Below are positions 39,224-47,477 of a stretch of DNA of 64,000 bases, one piece after another. Location of the stretch: NCBI RefSeq assembly GCF_030286555.1, contig NZ_JASVWF010000002.1, positions 186,001 to 250,000 on the forward strand, written 5' to 3'. The notes below the pieces were generated by a model. It saw nothing but the letters and a program-made list of their open reading frames with translations. It had not been told where the DNA came from and ran no database searches. Made by a program: the position numbers and the translations under genes. Origin of the DNA: Actinomycetospora termitidis (lineage in GTDB: Bacteria > Actinomycetota > Actinomycetes > Mycobacteriales > Pseudonocardiaceae). Within the stretch, counting starts at the first letter, position 1; each line of letters starts with the position of its first letter.

Positions 39224-40657
39224 TCAGGATGCGCCGTCGACCAGCAACGACGACCGGGTGGCCTCGGCGGTGTAGAGCGGCGGCGCGAGGAGGTCCCGGT
39301 TCCCGACGACGTCGCCACGTCCGGCGCCCCGCCGGGTCCGCCAGGCCGTGACGTGGTCCGCCGCGCTGCCGTGCGGGTCGAGGTGCAGCACCCGGGCGTA
39401 CTGGTGGATCGCCTCGTACACCGTCTCGGACAGGGCCGTGATCGGCGGGGCCCAGGCGCCGTGGGCCGCGTGGTAGCGGGCCACCAGCTCCGCGTTGCCG
39501 CCCACCGGCCCGCCCTGGAAGTAGCCGAGCGCGGTGCGCAGGCCCTCCGCGGCGCGGCCGCCGATGTGGGAGAACGTGGCGTCGTCGAGGACCAGCGACA
39601 CCGTGCGGGTGGTGTCCCGGAGCCCGGCGCGTTCGGCGGCCCGCTCGAAGGCGACCTCGTCGGCCCCCACCAGCGAGCTCAGCACGAGATCGGCGCCGGA
39701 CGCCTGGACCGACTCGATGATCGTCCCGAAGTCGGTCGTCCCCAGCGGCGTCAGCCGTTCGCCGGCGACGTCTCCGCCGGCCGCGTCGATCACCCGACGG
39801 GCGTCCCGGTGGGCGCCGCGGGACCAGACGTAGTCCTGCCCGACCAGGTACCACCGGCGGGCGCCGCCGCTCGCGCGCATCGTCGGGCCGACGAGGGCCT
39901 CCAGCTGCGCCCGGGGGCGTTCGCCGAGACGCAGCGTGGTCGCGGAGTCCCCGCCGCCCTCGTTGATGACCGAGTGGACCAGCAGCACCCCCGACGACTC
40001 GACCGCGTCCCGCACCGCCTCGAAGCTCGCCGAGGTGCTGTTCACGAACACCGCCCGGCACCCCAGCGCGACCATCCGCCGGGCCTCGAACGCCGCCTGG
40101 GCCGCGTCGGTGGCGTCGTCCGCGGTGAGGAGGGTCAGCCGGGTGCCCGCCACGCCGCCGTCGCTGTTCACCTCGTCGACGGCGAGCTCGGCCATCGCCT
40201 GGGCGGAGACCGAGTAGATCGCGCCGGGACCGGACATCGTCGTGATCGCCCCGATGCGGATCGACCCGTCGTCGGGCGGGTCCGGCAGCGGGATGCCGAC
40301 GCGGTGCAGCAGCCACTGCACGCCGGGGTCGGGGATGGTCGCGCGGACCGTGACCCGGGTGCGCGCGACGCCGTCGGCGCGGAAGCGGATGCAGAGCCTG
40401 CCCTGCCACGGCTGGGTGTGCTCGACGACGAGGAGCGTGCCGGGCACCACGCGCGAGAACCGTCCGAGCAGCTCCAGGCTCTCCGCGTCCGGCCCGTCGC
40501 CCACCGGCAGGCGCATGCTCACGGTCGCGCCCTCGGCCACCCGGTCGCACCGCGCGCCGAAGAGCCACCCCGCGGACCCGGTGGTGCCGAAGAGGGCGAA
40601 CACCTCGTGCCGCGGGAGGTCGACGACACGGTCCGCCGCGACGGTCGTACTGGTCAT
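39224..40657 (-). CDS. SRPBCC domain fused to an AmiC/NhlC-like amide-binding domain
   Basis: The 477 residues fall into two parts. Residues 1-120 (RVVDLPRHEVFALFGTTGSA, GWLFGARCDRVAEGATV, VEHTQPWQGRLCIRF) have the START/AHSA1-like SRPBCC pattern. From about 132, IRIGAITTMSGPGAIYSVSA, MAELAVDEVNSDGGVAGTRL and WYLVGQDYVWSRGAHRDARR are the AmiC/FmdD/urea-binding type of periplasmic-binding fold. There is no signal peptide or lipobox, so it acts in the cytoplasm. AmiC-like proteins (P. aeruginosa AmiC; Rhodococcus NhhC/NhlC) sense amides for nitrile hydratase or amidase genes. Being last in the nitrile hydratase operon, 19 bases after ArsR, fits that role. Confidence 0.85.
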   Translation of the reverse strand: MTSTTVAADRVVDLPRHEVFALFGTTGSAGWLFGARCDRVAEGATVSMRLPVGDGPDAESLELLGRFSRVVPGTLLVVEHTQPWQGRLCIRFRADGVARTRVTVRATIPDPGVQWLLHRVGIPLPDPPDDGSIRIGAITTMSGPGAIYSVSAQAMAELAVDEVNSDGGVAGTRLTLLTADDATDAAQAAFEARRMVALGCRAVFVNSTSASFEAVRDAVESSGVLLVHSVINEGGGDSATTLRLGERPRAQLEALVGPTMRASGGARRWYLVGQDYVWSRGAHRDARRVIDAAGGDVAGERLTPLGTTDFGTIIESVQASGADLVLSSLVGADEVAFERAAERAGLRDTTRTVSLVLDDATFSHIGGRAAEGLRTALGYFQGGPVGGNAELVARYHAAHGAWAPPITALSETVYEAIHQYARVLHLDPHGSAADHVTAWRTRRGAGRGDVVGNRDLLAPPLYTAEATRSSLLVDGAS

Positions 40658-40676
40658 CGCGGCCTCGCGGTTCTCC

Positions 40677-41069
40677 TCAGCCGGCCTCGTGCTCGCGTCG
40701 GTCGTCCTGCTCGTCCTGCCCCGTGACGTCCGGCGCGGCGATCCCGTCCACTGCCCGGTCCATGATCGACTGCAGGTAGACGAACGCGTCGCGAACGGTA
40801 CCGTCCCGATCCAGGGAGTAGTAGCGGTTGCGCCCGTCCCGCCGCTCGATCACGACGCCCGAGGTCCGCAGCACGCGCAGGTGGCTGGACACCGTCGTCC
40901 GACCGACGGAGTCGATGCGGTTCGCGATCTCGGTGACGGTGAGCTCGCCCTCGCGGCCGAGCTCGGCGAGGATGCGACGCCGCACGCGGTCCGACAGGGC
41001 GTCGAACGCGAGGTTCTCGTTCGCCTCCATGGCGCGGACGTTACCACCCGTCGACAGATGTGCACTCAT
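40677..41069 (-). CDS. ArsR-family transcriptional regulator (NhlD-like position)
   Basis: The frame starts at an ATG nine bases after the amidase stop. A second ATG at 41030 (MEANENLAFDALSDRVRRRI) matches the usual ArsR start and may be the real one. A winged helix is clear: LAFDALSDRVRRRILAELGR, LTVTEIANRIDSVGRTTVSS, HLRVLRTSGVVIERRDGRNR with the YYSLD beta-wing. The metal-binding CVCD motif of true arsenic sensors is absent. A CadC/ArsR-like protein (NhlD) regulates the Rhodococcus J1 L-nitrile hydratase genes, so a similar task is inferred here. Confidence 0.88.
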   Translation of the reverse strand: MSAHLSTGGNVRAMEANENLAFDALSDRVRRRILAELGREGELTVTEIANRIDSVGRTTVSSHLRVLRTSGVVIERRDGRNRYYSLDRDGTVRDAFVYLQSIMDRAVDGIAAPDVTGQDEQDDRREHEAG

Positions 41070-41078
41070 CGTGCCGAT

Positions 41079-42497
41079 TCACGACGCGACCAGTGGCGGG
41101 ACCGCCCGGTGGAACCCGGTGTGCGCCTGCAGTGCAGCGGCGGCCCGGAGCAGGGTGGCCTCGTTGAACGGCCGCCCGATCAACTGCATCCCGACCGGCA
41201 GCCCCTCGGCGTCGAAGCCGCACGGCACGCTGATCGCCGGCAGACCGGTCAGCGACGGCAGCCCGGTGAACTGCATGATCGCCGAGAGCATGTCCTCGGG
41301 GGCACCCGGCGTGATCTCCACGCTCGTCTCGCCGAGCGGCGTCGCCGCGAACGGCAGCGTCGGGCACACGAGCACGTCGGCGTGCGCCAGCGCGGCCATC
41401 GCCTGCTCGCGCAGCAGGGCCCGGTAGCGCTGGGCCTGGAGGTACTGGGTCGCGAGCAGCAGTTCGCCGGCCTCGAGCAGCAGCCGGACGTCGTCGCCGT
41501 AGTCCTGCGGACGCTCCCGCAGCCACCGCTGGTGGTACGTGCTCGGCTCCGCCGCCTCGATCGTCAGCTGGGCGGAGATGTTGCCCTCGATGTCGGGGAT
41601 CGTGACGTCGACGGTGTGCGCCCCGGCCCCGACGAGGACGTCCAGGGCGCTCCGCACCGACTTCTCCACCGCGGGCTGGACGTGGTGCAGCGAGTAGTCC
41701 TCGATCACGCCGATCCGCAGCCCCGCGACGCCGCGGTCGAGATCGCGGGAGTGGTCGACGGTGCCGCGTTCGACCGACCCGGCGTCGTCGGGATCGAACC
41801 CGGCCAGCACCGTGAACATCGCCGCGACGTCGGCGGCCGTGCGCCCCATCGGCCCGACGGTGTCCATGCTCCACGCCAGCGGGACCACCCCGGCGTTGCT
41901 GACCCGCCCGATCGTCGGTCGGAGCCCCGTGACGCCGTTGAGCGCGGACGGGAGCCGCACCGAGCCGCCCGTGTCGGTGCCGAGGGCGCCCGCGCAGGCC
42001 CGCGTCGCGACCGCGACCCCGGACCCGCCGCTGGACCCGCCCGGCATGCGGGAGGTGTCCCAGGGGTTGGTCACGAAGCCGTGGTGCGGGTTGGCGGAGG
42101 TCCCGCCCCAGGCGAACTCGTGCATGTTCGTCTTGCCGACGATGATCGCGCCCGCGCCGCGCAGGCGGCGGACCACGGCGGCGTCGGCGTCCGGACGGTG
42201 GTCGGCCAGGATCTTGCTCCCCGCCGTCGTGATCTCACCGCGGACGTCGATGTTGTCCTTCAGGGCGATCGGCACGCCGTGCAGCGGTCCGAGCCGGTGG
42301 CCGGCGGCGATCATCGTCTCGCTCGCCCGGGCCACCTCGAGGGCCTGCTCCGCGTACACGGAGATGAAGGCGTGCGTCCCGGAGATCGCCTCGATGCGGC
42401 GCAGGGTCGCGTCCATGAGCTCGACGGGCGACAGCGCGCCGGAGGCGATCAGCTCGGCGGACCCGGTGAGGGTGTTCTCGACGACGTCGTCGGTCAC
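41079..42497 (-). CDS. amidase signature family amidase (AtzE/GatA-like)
   Basis: The GTG at 42497 overlaps the stop of the small gene before it. The 472 residues have the Ser-cisSer-Lys triad: K80 in PIALKDNIDV, S155 in MPGGSSGGSG and S179 in GTDTGGSVRLPS, with the standard 24-residue spacing. PLHGVPIALK and GMQLIGRPFNEATLLRAAAA are also typical. It hydrolyses an amide to the acid plus ammonia. The adjacent AtzG-like gene suggests that it works as a heteromer, like AtzE with AtzG. It is the second amidase of this operon. Confidence 0.92.
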   Translation of the reverse strand: MTDDVVENTLTGSAELIASGALSPVELMDATLRRIEAISGTHAFISVYAEQALEVARASETMIAAGHRLGPLHGVPIALKDNIDVRGEITTAGSKILADHRPDADAAVVRRLRGAGAIIVGKTNMHEFAWGGTSANPHHGFVTNPWDTSRMPGGSSGGSGVAVATRACAGALGTDTGGSVRLPSALNGVTGLRPTIGRVSNAGVVPLAWSMDTVGPMGRTAADVAAMFTVLAGFDPDDAGSVERGTVDHSRDLDRGVAGLRIGVIEDYSLHHVQPAVEKSVRSALDVLVGAGAHTVDVTIPDIEGNISAQLTIEAAEPSTYHQRWLRERPQDYGDDVRLLLEAGELLLATQYLQAQRYRALLREQAMAALAHADVLVCPTLPFAATPLGETSVEITPGAPEDMLSAIMQFTGLPSLTGLPAISVPCGFDAEGLPVGMQLIGRPFNEATLLRAAAALQAHTGFHRAVPPLVAS

Positions 42498-42733
42498 GTC
42501 TCGCTCCCTTCGGCGGCCGGGGGCTGGCCGAACACGGTGGCGGGCATCAGGGGGCGCAGGGACTCGGCCTGCATCCGCGTGCTCAGGGCGTTCGCGTCCG
42601 GGATCCAGGCGGAGAGCAGGGCGGCGACCGCAGCCGCGCGGCCCTCGTCGAGCGGGAGCCCGGCGAGGGTCGCGGCCGCGGCGACGGTGCCGGCCGTGAC
42701 CGGGCCGGCACCGTCGTCGTCGGGACGGGTCAT
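42494..42733 (-). CDS. AtzG-like small protein (DUF4089 type)
   Basis: The ATG at 42733 overlaps the activator stop, and its TGA overlaps the amidase start (GTGA), so it is coupled on both sides. The 79 residues contain AATLAGLPLDEGRAAAVAAL and a following helix. This resembles the AtzG/DUF4089 pattern (..LAGLPLDPERRPGVAANL..), a GatC-like small subunit that wraps its amidase. Position right before an amidase gene supports this. Confidence 0.7.
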   Translation of the reverse strand: MTRPDDDGAGPVTAGTVAAAATLAGLPLDEGRAAAVAALLSAWIPDANALSTRMQAESLRPLMPATVFGQPPAAEGSET

Positions 42734-43161
42734 GCGTCCGTGCCCGCCGGGACCACGGCCACGGGGTCCCGCACCGCGTGGTGGTGGTCCATCGTCGAGG
42801 GCTGGTCGAGGATCTCCTGCGTCCGGGTCTCGAGCTCCTCGCCGCTCACCCACCCCTTGGCGTGCGCGAGCTCCTCCAGCGCGGCCAACCACCGCTCGTA
42901 GTAGCTCCACCGCTCCAGGTCCGACTGCTCGGACTCCCACCGGCGGATCGCCGCGATCAGCTCGGACTGGAACTCCTCCCAGGGGAACCCGAGCTTCTCG
43001 TGCAGGGCCACCGTCATGGCGAAGGCACGGATCTCCCACGCCTGGTCGAAGGCGACCTCGCCGTCGTGGCGGGGGATGCGGTCGTTGAACGGGAGCACGT
43101 CGACCAGGGAGTCGACCCGCGGCTTGGTCTCGGCGGACGGCCGCTCGTTGATCGTCTGCAC
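42730..43161 (-). CDS. nitrile hydratase accessory/activator protein
   Basis: The GTG at 43161 lies two bases after the alpha-subunit stop. The 143 residues (VQTINERPSAETKPRVDSLV) include DRIPRHDGEVAFDQAWEIRA, FAMTVALHEKLGFPWEEFQS and YYERWLAALEELAHAKGWVS. This is the family of small proteins related to the N-terminal half of the beta subunit (P14K/NhlE type) that deliver cobalt and swap the alpha subunit during maturation of Co-type nitrile hydratase. Confidence 0.92.
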   Translation of the reverse strand: MQTINERPSAETKPRVDSLVDVLPFNDRIPRHDGEVAFDQAWEIRAFAMTVALHEKLGFPWEEFQSELIAAIRRWESEQSDLERWSYYERWLAALEELAHAKGWVSGEELETRTQEILDQPSTMDHHHAVRDPVAVVPAGTDA

Positions 43162-43163
43162 GC

Positions 43164-43796
43164 TCAGGCCCCCGGGCTCTGCACGCCACCGACGCCGATC
43201 ATCGCGTCGCGGGTGACGAGTGCCTCGAGCTGCTCCTCGGTCCAGCCGTCGGTGCCCTCCGGGCGCATTGGCAGCACGAAGTAGCGCAGCTCCGCGCTGG
43301 AGTCCCACACCCGGACCTCGACGCTCTCGGGCAGGTCGAGCCCGAACTCCTTCATGACGCCGCGCGGGTCGCGCACCGCGCGCGAGCGGTAGGCGGGGTA
43401 CTTGTACCAGTTCGGGGGCAGGCCCAGGACCGGCCACGGATAGCAGGAGCAGAGCGTGCACACCACCATGTGGTGCACCGACTCGGTGTCCTCCAGGGCG
43501 ATCATCTCCTCGCCCTGCATGCCGCCGAAGCCCAGCTCCTCGCAGGCCTTCGTGGCGTCGGCGAGCAGGCGGGCCTTGAACTCCGGGTCGGTCCAGGCCT
43601 TCGCGACGACCTTCGCGCCGATCTGCGGCCCGACCTCGTTCTCGTAGACCGAGGACATGTAGTCGATCGCGTCGGAGCCGATGATCCCCTTCTCGACGAG
43701 GATGGACTCCATGGCCTTGGCGCGGGCGGCCAGCTCGGCGTCGCTGTGCCTCGACAGGCCGGCGACGGGCTGGATCTTGTCGTCTGTCGACGTCAT
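43164..43796 (-). CDS. nthA: cobalt-type nitrile hydratase alpha subunit
   Basis: The ATG at 43796 gives 210 residues. The metal site is VCTLCSC with C113, C116 and C118; threonine rather than serine after the first cysteine marks the cobalt type. [20 protein letters not shown] and [20 protein letters not shown] are family hallmarks. The two outer site cysteines are normally oxidised to sulfinic and sulfenic acid. With the beta subunit it hydrates nitriles to amides. Order here is beta, alpha, activator, as in other Co-type operons. Confidence 0.96.
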
Positions 43797-43831: not shown

Positions 43832-44512
43832 TCACGGGGTCGTGAGGTAGGGCTCCCACAGGTCGATGTGCATGACGGAGTTGACGGCGCCGGGCTCGTC
43901 GCCCCACAGCTCCTGCGCGGTGAACCGCACGGTGTAGAGGTGGTGGGGGTCCTCGCCCAGGCCGGACGCGTTGGAGTCCGGGTAGACGTAGGCGCCGTGG
44001 TGGTGGGTGATCTCGCCGACGTGCCCGCGCACGTAGCTCGCCCGCCGGGTGTGGCTGGTGGAGGCCTCCGGGCGGACCCGCACGGTGTCGCCGATCCTGA
44101 ACTTCGGTTCCGCCTCGACGTCGCGGCGGTAGTCGTCGCCGTTCGGGATCAGCTGCTTGAGCGCCTCGACCAGCTCCGGCTTCGTCGCCTTCGGCACCTC
44201 CTCGCCGGGGTTCTCGAGGTAGTGCTGCGTGCGGCGCTCGAGCTCCTCGGGATCGAAGATCCCCGCCTCGGTGCCGTGCAGCACCATGGAGTGCATCCAG
44301 TGCTCGTAGTAGCGCGAGGTCAGGTACTCCGCGGCCGGGATCTGCTCCATGCCGGATCGGAAGCCGTCCAGGTTGAAGGCGCCGGCGATCGCCATCGCCG
44401 GGAACATCGGGAGGACGCGCTTCTCCCACTCCGAGCCGAACACGGGCTCGTCGTCGGGATGGACGACGGGGCCGTGGCCGGCCTTGCCGCCGAGGTCGTG
44501 GATTCCGTCCAT
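43832..44512 (-). CDS. nthB: nitrile hydratase beta subunit
   Basis: The 226 residues begin [20 protein letters not shown], the conserved beta-subunit start. They continue with [39 protein letters not shown] and the C-terminal SH3-like barrel [53 protein letters not shown]. Conserved arginines that hydrogen-bond to the alpha-subunit cysteine oxides lie in these parts. It is followed 35 bases later by the alpha gene. Confidence 0.96.
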
Positions 44513-44557: not shown

Positions 44558-46093
44558 TCAGGCCGGGACCGCGGCGCCCGCCGGCGCAGGGAAACCGCCG
44601 ACGGCCTGCTCGTAGGCGTGGGCCGCGCGCAGGACGGTGGCGTCCGCGAACTGGCGCCCGACGATCGACATGCCGACCGGGAGGCCGTCGGCGAGCGGAG
44701 CGGGCACGGAGCACACGGGGTGGCCCGTGACGTCGAACGGCGCAGTGTTGGCGAGCATCTCCAGCGCGCGGCCGAGCAGTTCGGGCGGGCGGGCATCGCG
44801 GCCGGGGCGGACGGTGGCGCGCATCGGCAGGGTGGGCAGCACGAGCACGTCGACGTCGGCGAGCGCGGCGTCGTAGGCGGCCGCGAGCTTCGGCGCGAGG
44901 TTCTGCGCCATCGCGTAGTGGCGCCCGTGGGTGGAGTTCAGCCCGTACTTCCCGGCGAGCAGCACGAGGTTGACCGTGGTGGGGAAGCGGCTGCCGTCCT
45001 CGGTCCAGCGGCGGCCGTAGTGCTCCATGACGTCCGGGTCGAACAGGCCCTTCCAGTTCAGGCCGTAGCCGGAGTTCTCGATCATCTGCGAGGCGGCGCC
45101 CTCGGTCGCGATGACGTCCCAGATCTTCGGTCCGTGCAGGTGCCAGGGCACGGACACCTCGGAGACGGCCATCCCGGCGTCGGCGAGCGCGGTGATCGCC
45201 TCGCGGACCGCGGCGTCGACCTCGGGTTCGGACTCGGCGAGGCCGAAGCCCTCCCGCAGCACGCCGACGCGCAACCCGCTCGCGCCGCCCGAGAGCGCGC
45301 CGACGTAGTCGTCGGCGGCGACGCCAATGGGCTGGCGCGGGTCGTGGCCGTCGGCCCCGGCGATGACCGACAGCATCAGGGCGGCGTCGGCGACGGTCCG
45401 GGTGATCGGGCCGACGTGGTCGATGGTCGACTCGATCGGGAAGGCGCCGGTGTAGGGGACGAGGCCCCAGGTGGGCTTGTGCCCGACGACGCCGCAGTCC
45501 GAGGCGGGGATGCGGATCGACCCGCCCTGGTCGCCGCCGGTGGCCATGTCCACCACGCCGCCCGCGACGAGCGCGGCGCTGCCGCCCGACGAGCCGCCGG
45601 CGTGCCGGGTCGGGTCCCACGGGTTCTCGACGTCCCCGGTGTTGGCGGTGATCCCGGCCCCGGAGAAGCACAGGTCCTCGCAGACCGCCTTGCCGGTGAT
45701 CGTCGCGCCGGCCTCGAGCAGGCGCGTGACGATCGTGGCGTCGGTGTGCGGGACGTAGCCCTCGACGGTGGCCGAGCCGTTCGTCATCGGCACCCCGGCG
45801 ACCGCGGTGTTGTCCTTGATCGCGACGGTGCGCCCGGCCAGCGGGCCGTCGGGCGCCCCGGCGATCGAGGTCGTGACGTACCAGGCGTGGTACGGGTTCT
45901 CCGCGGGCTGCTGCCAGGCCCGGTCCGGGACGACCGGCGCCTCGGCCGCGTAGAGCTCCTCGACCGCGTCCCAGGAGCCCAGCAGCCCGGCCACGACCGG
46001 CGCGTACTCGTCGACCTCGGCGTCGGATAGACCGAGCCCGTATCCGGCGGCGACGGCGGCGAGGGCGTCGTGGTCGGGCGGTGGGAGAGGCAT
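44558..46093 (-). CDS. nitrile hydratase-associated amidase (amidase signature family)
   Basis: The ATG at 46093 after GAGGAGCCCC gives 511 residues. It has a roughly 80-residue helical N-terminal extension followed by the signature core: K93 in [17 protein letters not shown]168 in [14 protein letters not shown] and S192 in [13 protein letters not shown] (24-residue spacing). [20 protein letters not shown] and [20 protein letters not shown] also match the enantioselective amidases of Rhodococcus nitrile hydratase clusters. It is the first gene of the operon, 45 bases before the beta subunit. Two amidases in one operon suggest different amide chain types. Confidence 0.94.
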
Positions 46094-46337
46094 CGGGGCT
46101 CCTCGCGGTCGGGTCGGATGTGTGACTGGCCGCACGCTAGGAAGCACATCGTCAATATGTCAATGCACTCCGACGTATCCACATGTTCCGTTCCGATGAC
46201 GCCGTTGCGGCCGGGTTTCGTCACGTCCGCGCGGCGCGGTGTATCTGCCGACGGCTATCGACACGTTCCGATGAGGAGGCTTAGCGTCTGCCCGCCGCCG
46301 TGCCCTCTCGGCGGTCCCCGAGTCGAGGAGCGTGCCC
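46094..46337. promoter_or_regulatory. divergent control region of the nitrile hydratase operon and cobalt transporter
   Basis: On the minus strand TTGACA (46158-46163), an 18-base spacer and TAGCGT (46134-46139) form a good promoter for the amidase operon. TATCCACATGTTCCG (46176-46190) and TATCGACACGTTCCG (46256-46270) are two direct copies, 13 of 15 bases equal and exactly 80 bases apart. They are candidate binding sites for the regulators of the operon. I saw no cobalamin riboswitch-like structure. Confidence 0.6.
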
Positions 46338-47477
46338 GTGACGTCGGTCGTGGCCGGGTCGACCCGCTGGACGCAGCGCGAACGCCTGCAGCTGACGGGC
46401 ATCGTCGCCGTCATCGGCGTCCTGCACATCGCCGGCTGGACGCTGTACCTGTCCCTGACGTCGGGTCCGCTCGGCGCCGGGGCCTTCGCCGGCGCGGGCG
46501 TCCTGGCCTATGTCCTGGGCATCCGGCACGCCTTCGACGCCGACCACATCGCCGCCATCGACGACACCACCCGCCTCATGGTGCAGCGGGGTCGGCGTCC
46601 GGTCGGCGTCGGCTTCTTCTTCGCGATGGGGCACTCGTCGGTCGTCGTCGCGCTCTCGCTGATCGTCGCGGTCGCCGCCGGGGCCGCGGTGGCCAGCGGG
46701 ACGATCGACCAGTGGCGCGCCGTCGGCGGCACGGTGTCCACCGTCGTCGCGATGGTCTTCCTCGGCCTGGTCGCGGTGCTGAACGCCCTGGTGCTCAAGG
46801 GCATCGTCCGGGCGTGGTCCGACCTGCGGCGCGGGCGCCTCGACGAGGCCGACCTCGAGCGTCAGCTACTCAACCGGGGGCTGGTCAACCGCATCCTCGG
46901 CGGGCGGGCGCGCACCCTGATCAAGCACTCGTGGCACATGTACCCGCTCGGGATCCTCTTCGGGCTGGGCCTGGAGACCGCCTCCGAGGTCACGCTGTTG
47001 ACGCTCTCGGCCACGACCGCGTCGACCGCGGGCGGCGTCGCGGGCGGGGCGCCGCTGCTGGCCGCGCTCACGCTGCCGCTGCTGTTCGCGGCCGGCATGA
47101 GCGCGTTCGACACGTTCGACGGCGTGCTGATGTCAGTGGCGTACTCGTGGTCGAACCGCAACCCCGCGCGGCGGCTCTTCTACAACATCGCCACCACGAC
47201 GGCGACCGTCGCGGTCGCGGGCTTCATCGCCACCGTCTACCTCGCCGGCGTGCTGGTCGACGAGCTCGGCATGGTCGCGCTCGAGGGCTACGCCGGACTC
47301 GCTGACGACTTCGAGGTCCTCGGCTACGTCATCGTCGGCTTCTTCGTGCTGGTGTGGGGCGGCGCCGCCCTGCTGTGGCGCCTGGGAGGGTTCGAGCGTC
47401 GGCACCCGAACCGGACCGACGACGCGGTGCACGACGAGGCCGACGTCGCGAGGGAGCCGGACGTCACCGCCTCGTGA
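46338..47477 (+). CDS. NiCoT-family cobalt (nickel) transporter, NhlF-like
   Basis: The GTG at 46338 has GAGGAG seven bases ahead; a GTG at 46332 is too close to it. The 379 residues form eight or so membrane segments with the NiCoT signature RHAFDADHIAAIDDTTR (HxxxxDH) and FFAMGHSSVVVALSL. LGLETASEVTLLTLSATTAS and MSAFDTFDGVLMSVAYSW are the other conserved blocks. NhlF of Rhodococcus J1, encoded beside the L-nitrile hydratase genes, supplies cobalt for the enzyme. The same role is inferred from the position here. Confidence 0.93.
   Translation: MTSVVAGSTRWTQRERLQLTGIVAVIGVLHIAGWTLYLSLTSGPLGAGAFAGAGVLAYVLGIRHAFDADHIAAIDDTTRLMVQRGRRPVGVGFFFAMGHSSVVVALSLIVAVAAGAAVASGTIDQWRAVGGTVSTVVAMVFLGLVAVLNALVLKGIVRAWSDLRRGRLDEADLERQLLNRGLVNRILGGRARTLIKHSWHMYPLGILFGLGLETASEVTLLTLSATTASTAGGVAGGAPLLAALTLPLLFAAGMSAFDTFDGVLMSVAYSWSNRNPARRLFYNIATTTATVAVAGFIATVYLAGVLVDELGMVALEGYAGLADDFEVLGYVIVGFFVLVWGGAALLWRLGGFERRHPNRTDDAVHDEADVAREPDVTAS

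Follow-up and report, generated by a model that had tools for sequence, protein, structure and literature searches.

The window analysed here, a stretch of 64,000 nucleotides from Actinomycetospora termitidis, contains a nitrile hydratase (NHase)/amidase operon on the minus strand. An amidase gene (44558..46147; NCBIfam PRK07235, 723.9 bits, over cut-off) is followed by genes for the NHase beta subunit (43832..44512), the alpha subunit (43164..43796), an NHase accessory protein (42730..43161), a 79-residue protein (42494..42733) and a further amidase (41079..42497), which is AtzE-like by NCBIfam at a score under the curated cut-off. The 79-residue protein matched no Pfam family and has similar frames in related loci; we take its position to recall that of AtzG. 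Divergent from the operon, on the plus strand, lies a gene for a NicO/HoxN-type nickel-cobalt transporter (46332..47477). The 3′ end of the operon is occupied by a gene for an NhlD-like ArsR-family regulator (40677..41069, minus strand; likely start 41030), the translation of which has no cysteine, and, starting 19 bases downstream of it, by a gene for a 477-residue fusion protein (39224..40657, minus strand). No antiterminator domain was found among the seven window proteins scanned. In Actinomycetospora lutea, a beta-subunit-like piece abuts the end of the AtzE-like amidase (L004:9481-9910), which looks like an operon deletion or an assembly fault.

The fusion protein was proposed in a preliminary description to join an SRPBCC domain to an AmiC-like receptor without a signal peptide, and this order was borne out by the predicted fold and by the profile match of the receptor. 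The first domain comprises residues 1–120 (40298..40657, minus strand) and the second, an AmiC/UrtA-type binding domain with an amide/urea-type periplasmic-binding-protein fold, approximately residues 131–440 (39338..40267, minus strand); no export signal was seen by inspection. Pfam alone did not detect the SRPBCC domain: the window protein gave no match, and family members matched weakly in 5 of 17 cases. When the N-domain profile was run against the sequences of solved structures, it returned chance matches only, and a comparison of folds was therefore required. By structure comparison, the predicted model has the helix-grip fold of the SRPBCC/START superfamily, and in hhalign the N-domain matched a profile of ArsR-linked SRPBCC proteins with a probability of 92.3 (E 5.4e-7). 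Four fusion frames were matched at E < 1e-4 by a model built from the ArsR-linked SRPBCC proteins. Residues F23, G24, W31, C37, G43, V46, P51, G65, H80, P83, W84, G86 and W115 were invariant in an alignment of 17 sequences. For the receptor part, the best structural match was to UrtA urea-binding proteins (8tg1, 7s6e), and the profile match to AmiC (1pea) reached E 1.2e-34.

The NhlC and NhlD regulators of the Rhodococcus rhodochrous J1 L-NHase cluster were reportedly described by Komeda and colleagues in 1996; NhlD is said to be a negative regulator and NhlC to be required for amide induction. The R. rhodochrous strains BAA-870 and BX2 carry, in this order, genes for ArsR, the fusion (15 bases downstream of ArsR), nthB, nthA, the accessory protein, NicO and the amidase, which is also the order of the J1 cluster (nhlD, nhlC, nhlB, nhlA, nhlE, nhlF, amdA). 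The window gene occupies the corresponding position: it comes directly after ArsR, and a NicO-type transporter gene belongs to the same NHase/amidase cluster. The fusion protein aligns over its full length, N-domain included, with its counterpart from the nhlC position in the J1-type cluster of BAA-870 (43% identity over the alignment). We took the fusion to be NhlC because the BAA-870/BX2 order equals the J1 order and because the BAA-870 NHase is identical to the J1 L-NHase, as stated in an excerpt of one report (PMC6983157). The SRPBCC–receptor fusion thus appears, by homology and gene order, to be a widespread form of NhlC, identified through BAA-870 and BX2 rather than through the J1 sequence itself. 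The suggestion that the protein was of an undescribed kind is not supported by this comparison: in Rhodococcus clusters the nhlC position is taken by the same form, which comes close to the common, already characterised NhlC form that the preliminary description had itself named as counting against it. In two R. pyridinivorans plasmids, genes for a FecCD-type ABC transporter, possibly for cobalt or corrinoid uptake, adjoin the NhlC module (L027:10015-13599, L026:14077-17035).

A scan of contigs found 20 fusion loci, in Actinomycetospora, Pseudonocardia, Nocardioides, Paenarthrobacter and others, and among plasmids eight records covered at least 80% of the query, every one from Rhodococcus or Paenarthrobacter. 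We then searched genomes, scoring the best candidates in each (up to 10 or 11 for the N-domain, up to five for the receptor). The N-domain profile matched 79 of the 390 genomes of the host's taxonomic family (G721 weakly), and in a class-wide sample it matched 3 of 394, namely the own genome, one clear case and one weak case. A unique or newly assembled fusion is rejected by its presence in 79 family genomes and on Rhodococcus and Paenarthrobacter plasmids. When the same 390 genomes were searched with the receptor, 80 places were found at E < 1e-50, and the two listings, paired by eye, gave an N-domain match at all 80; four of these matches are partial and fall at a contig edge or in an interrupted copy (G711, G751, G615, G689). 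The next class of receptors begins at E 5.7e-45, with approximately 36% identity and frames of approximately 368 residues. The receptor part is present at 80 of the 81 N-domain places, the exception being G676 (L094), so that the SRPBCC domain is joined to a receptor rather than encoded as the separate small protein of ArsR–COG3832 pairs. Interrupted copies of the fusion were seen in a Saccharopolyspora (L022/L110) and at L094, where there is an N-terminal part only.

Gene neighbourhoods were compared in 81 fetched loci (L062–L113 and L117–L145), a set that includes near-identical species, excludes the own genome and leaves out three weak N-domain matches (L114–L116; E 5.7e-4 to 7.8e-4). In 76 of them the gene directly upstream encodes ArsR; an amidase is near in 77 and NHase in 51. 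The position of the pair at the end of an NHase/amidase operon, ArsR first, was described correctly for the window. The idea that the fusion always follows ArsR beside NHase genes holds for ArsR in most loci, though not always; the association with NHase stands for 51 loci, but the amidase is the steadier companion. Among the five loci without ArsR directly upstream, one ends at a contig edge (L109), two are interrupted copies (L110, which has an ArsR-like frame whose position is not fixed, and L112) and in two the ArsR gene has another place in the cluster (L119, L122). Neither amidase nor NHase was found in 4 of the 81 loci (L110, L112, L123, L125). A strict tie of the fusion to NHase is rejected by 26 of the 81 clusters in which an amidase is present and NHase was not found; the amidases of five of these were confirmed by Pfam (L066, L096, L104, L106, L113).

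These neighbourhoods bear on the possibility that the fusion is a stray transport-type binding protein with no regulatory role, as annotations of the type ‘ABC transporter substrate-binding protein’ in databases would have it. We consider this very improbable, given that no export signal was seen, that no ABC permease was found in the window operon, that ArsR is the neighbour in 76 of the 81 loci and that the protein matches over its full length the one at the nhlC position. The fusion is a real gene, most likely functional, of the NhlC/NhlD kind.

AmiC-like receptors that lack the N-domain provide a natural comparison. Four were examined, from the 22 plasmid matches listed whose alignment begins no earlier than query residue 116, and all four adjoin a MarR gene (Rhodococcus sp. 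M8, R. aetherivorans N1 pN2, R. pyridinivorans YC-JH2 and Pleomorphomonas); in the three that were aligned, the protein starts where the receptor domain starts. The three Rhodococcus MarR clusters also carry an ArsR gene downstream of NHase (L028:12591-12950, L185:8599-8951, L186:8535-8894). AmiC works without an SRPBCC domain, and the SRPBCC domain of NhlC might accordingly be a mere dimerisation or stability module left over from the fusion, with the receptor alone regulating NhlD as AmiC does AmiR. The Aha1 dimer (2m89), which is among the VIA rows for the N-domain, would suit such a role, as would the somewhat lower conservation of the N-domain (mean pairwise identity 50% against 57% for the receptor). 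Nevertheless, all 80 places with this receptor clade also show an N-domain match, and the four AmiC-like proteins without it adjoin MarR, not ArsR; we therefore hold this explanation to be improbable.

NCBIfam places the window ArsR under ‘metalloregulator’ (71.2 bits). Cysteine is absent from 33 of 76 NhlD-like relatives, and occurs once in 40 and twice in three; a single alignment column has cysteine in more than 3 of the 76 rows, with 35. A search of these relatives for thiolate sites only thus revealed no conserved multi-cysteine metal site, which disfavours thiolate metal sensing, and judging from the alignment NhlD is probably not a metal sensor. In BAA-870, NhlD has a cysteine at a wing position held by arginine in 74 of 74 scoreable relatives (L024:7647-7985 compared with L029:7647-7985); BAA-870 and BX2 differ by six bases across 4.7 kb. 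The BAA-870 NHase is described as constitutive in an excerpt of one paper (PMC6941271). The combination of the variant with constitutive NHase fits a role of NhlD as repressor, as a correlation only.

We collected 38 ArsR paralogs, comprising the eight next-best in the own genome and 30 loci among the matches listed for 15 fusion-free genomes, and in 22 of them an AHSA1-type SRPBCC protein adjoins, or is fused to, the ArsR protein. In the own genome the figure is six of eight, with five of the six confirmed by Pfam. The same SRPBCC model found two stand-alone frames in the 1.204 Mb of loci fetched around fusion genes, one of them in L115, a locus that had been fetched for a weak SRPBCC-like match, and the adjacency in 22 of 38 is therefore above background. 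The own genome also encodes a single-chain ArsR–AHSA1 fusion (L152:913-1719; 269 residues by a mechanical ORF call; HTH and AHSA1 by Pfam). In a midpoint-rooted tree of 60 ArsR sequences (22 of the 76 NhlD-like proteins and all 38 paralogs; 102 columns), the NhlD-like proteins form one clade (98/92), nested in a group of 48 rows (92/82) that holds all 22 SRPBCC-linked and four unlinked ArsR proteins. The remaining 12 unlinked proteins lie outside this group, in three clades and one single row; the support for the sister group of the NhlD clade is moderate (92/78) and not firm. The placing of the NhlD clade among mostly SRPBCC-adjoining ArsR proteins fits a merger of an ArsR–SRPBCC partnership with a receptor partnership, as far as a tree of sequences can indicate, and thereby supports the preliminary description, which had suggested that two regulatory partnerships merged here. 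ArsR–COG3832 pairs have been described as abundant, without metal motifs and of uncertain function by Makarova et al. (2009; PMC2701414), and an excerpt of a Frankia paper refers to the ArsR–AHSA1 link as not elucidated (PMC4531530).

Alternatively, the SRPBCC domain might provide a second ligand pocket, taking up, for instance, a nitrile or amide that is bulky or aromatic. NhlC would then be a two-input sensor whose receptor domain contacts NhlD. SRPBCC folds commonly bind hydrophobic ligands, and among the Foldseek rows for the N-domain are PR-10 proteins and PYL13, a plant hormone receptor. However, the cavity of such folds is normally closed by a long helix, and the present domain is a short one, whose C-terminal helix spans just 10 residues in the model (110–119); moreover, the recurrent association that we found is that of SRPBCC with ArsR. 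We regard a second pocket as unlikely, if a little less so than a mere dimerisation module.

To look for an operator, we scanned a discovery set of 83 regions upstream of ArsR genes for dyads, and the top ones were GTCAA-N6-TTGAC (12 loci), TGTCA-N8-TGACA (nine) and GTCGA-N6-TCGAC (eight), the last of which ties with an unrelated GGCGT-N3-ACGCC, also at eight loci. The top three merge into TGTCRA-N6-TYGACA, which is present with at most two mismatches in 50 of the 83 regions and not in the other 33. In classes outside the discovery set, sites with at most one mismatch numbered 12 in 12,986 positions upstream of amidase genes, four in 2,259 positions upstream of NicO (three Actinomycetospora loci) and three in 11,295 upstream of nthB; the 2,510 positions before the AtzE-like amidase gene held none. 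Elsewhere there were eight in 1,125,688 positions. The motif is enriched at amidase and NicO promoters. Two-mismatch sites upstream of nthB were set aside; many of them seem to stem from a single recurring stretch of the amidase gene ahead of nthB.

In the window, two predicted operators lie in the gap between the NicO and amidase genes: TGTCAATGCACTCCGACG (46158..46175, two mismatches) and TGCCGACGGCTATCGACA (46246..46263, one mismatch), the latter being the sole site in the window with at most one mismatch. The own genome has 43 such sites, and the motif alone therefore does not define a regulon. Ahead of the likely ArsR start, a palindrome that resembles a decayed operator has four mismatches as judged by eye (41049..41066). 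Elsewhere, a site begins 90 bases ahead of amdA in P. aurescens TC1, a perfect site in R. pyridinivorans PE41 overlaps the 5′ end, as annotated, of the gene that opens the NHase operon, and a two-mismatch site lies ahead of ArsR in BAA-870 and BX2. No site with at most two mismatches was found in the N1 pN1 cluster, in which the pair is present, nor any with at most one mismatch in the four MarR-type loci.

From what was computed, that is the domains, the constant pairing, the operator enrichment and the ArsR clade, we infer repression, amide as the ligand, an SRPBCC–ArsR contact and the direction of the effect. We give a probability of roughly 60% to NhlC and NhlD being an operon pair induced by amide, in which NhlD represses and NhlC lifts the repression upon amide through the SRPBCC contact. 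NhlD would bind TGTCRA-N6-TYGACA at the promoters of the operon and of the cobalt transporter and, in most relatives, also at its own promoter. NhlC would be a cytoplasmic amide receptor, whose SRPBCC domain presumably descends from the SRPBCC partner of an ancestral ArsR protein and is the most likely contact, or docking arm, to NhlD; amide in the AmiC/UrtA-type domain would alter this contact and so bring NhlD off the DNA. We favour the docking arm because the ArsR protein lacks a conserved thiolate site, because the predicted operator occurs at the target genes and because NhlD is kin to SRPBCC-adjoining ArsR proteins. More tentatively, and with rather less confidence than in the pair itself, we suggest that SRPBCC may be a general anti-repressor arm of ArsR–SRPBCC modules, to which NhlC adds a sensor of known chemistry, relaying amide to a metal-free ArsR protein. 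If true, this would give many actinobacterial ArsR–SRPBCC pairs a working mechanism. The covalent linkage to a receptor of predictable ligand, together with a predicted operator, makes the question of ArsR–COG3832 function directly testable. NhlC/NhlD clusters are of industrial interest, and here the pair would be the nitrile-degradation switch of a soil bacterium.

What is known is the NhlC/NhlD kind of regulator; what is new is the reading of its SRPBCC domain and the link to ArsR–SRPBCC modules. In the open-licence literature, we found neither an SRPBCC domain ascribed to NhlC nor any account of the operator or of the kinship of NhlD with SRPBCC-linked ArsR proteins. AmiC-type receptors sense amides, and AmiC of Pseudomonas aeruginosa has the same amide-receptor fold as the window receptor, in which likewise no signal peptide was seen; AmiC, however, has no SRPBCC domain, and its partner AmiR is an antiterminator, whereas the partner in the window is ArsR. 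The UrtA urea-binding proteins, structurally the best match of the NhlC receptor part and sharing a TSAS block with it, are exported transport proteins. With J1 NhlC/NhlD the window shares, by way of BAA-870 and BX2, an ArsR gene directly followed by a full-length two-domain homologue; it differs in that the identity is 43%, the pair comes last in the operon, on the 3′ side, and an AtzE-like amidase is present in addition. The NhhC/NhhD-type regulators (H-NHase; nhmCDG in strain M8, PMC5805882) also place an AmiC-like receptor by a cobalt-type NHase, but theirs has 361 residues, no SRPBCC domain and an adjacent MarR gene, with ArsR further off behind NHase. The ArsR–COG3832 (AHSA1/SRPBCC) modules, as presented in PMC2701414, resemble the window pair in having an ArsR protein without a cysteine metal motif, phylogenetically close to NhlD, beside SRPBCC; their SRPBCC protein is usually separate, whereas that of NhlC is fused to an amide-type receptor.
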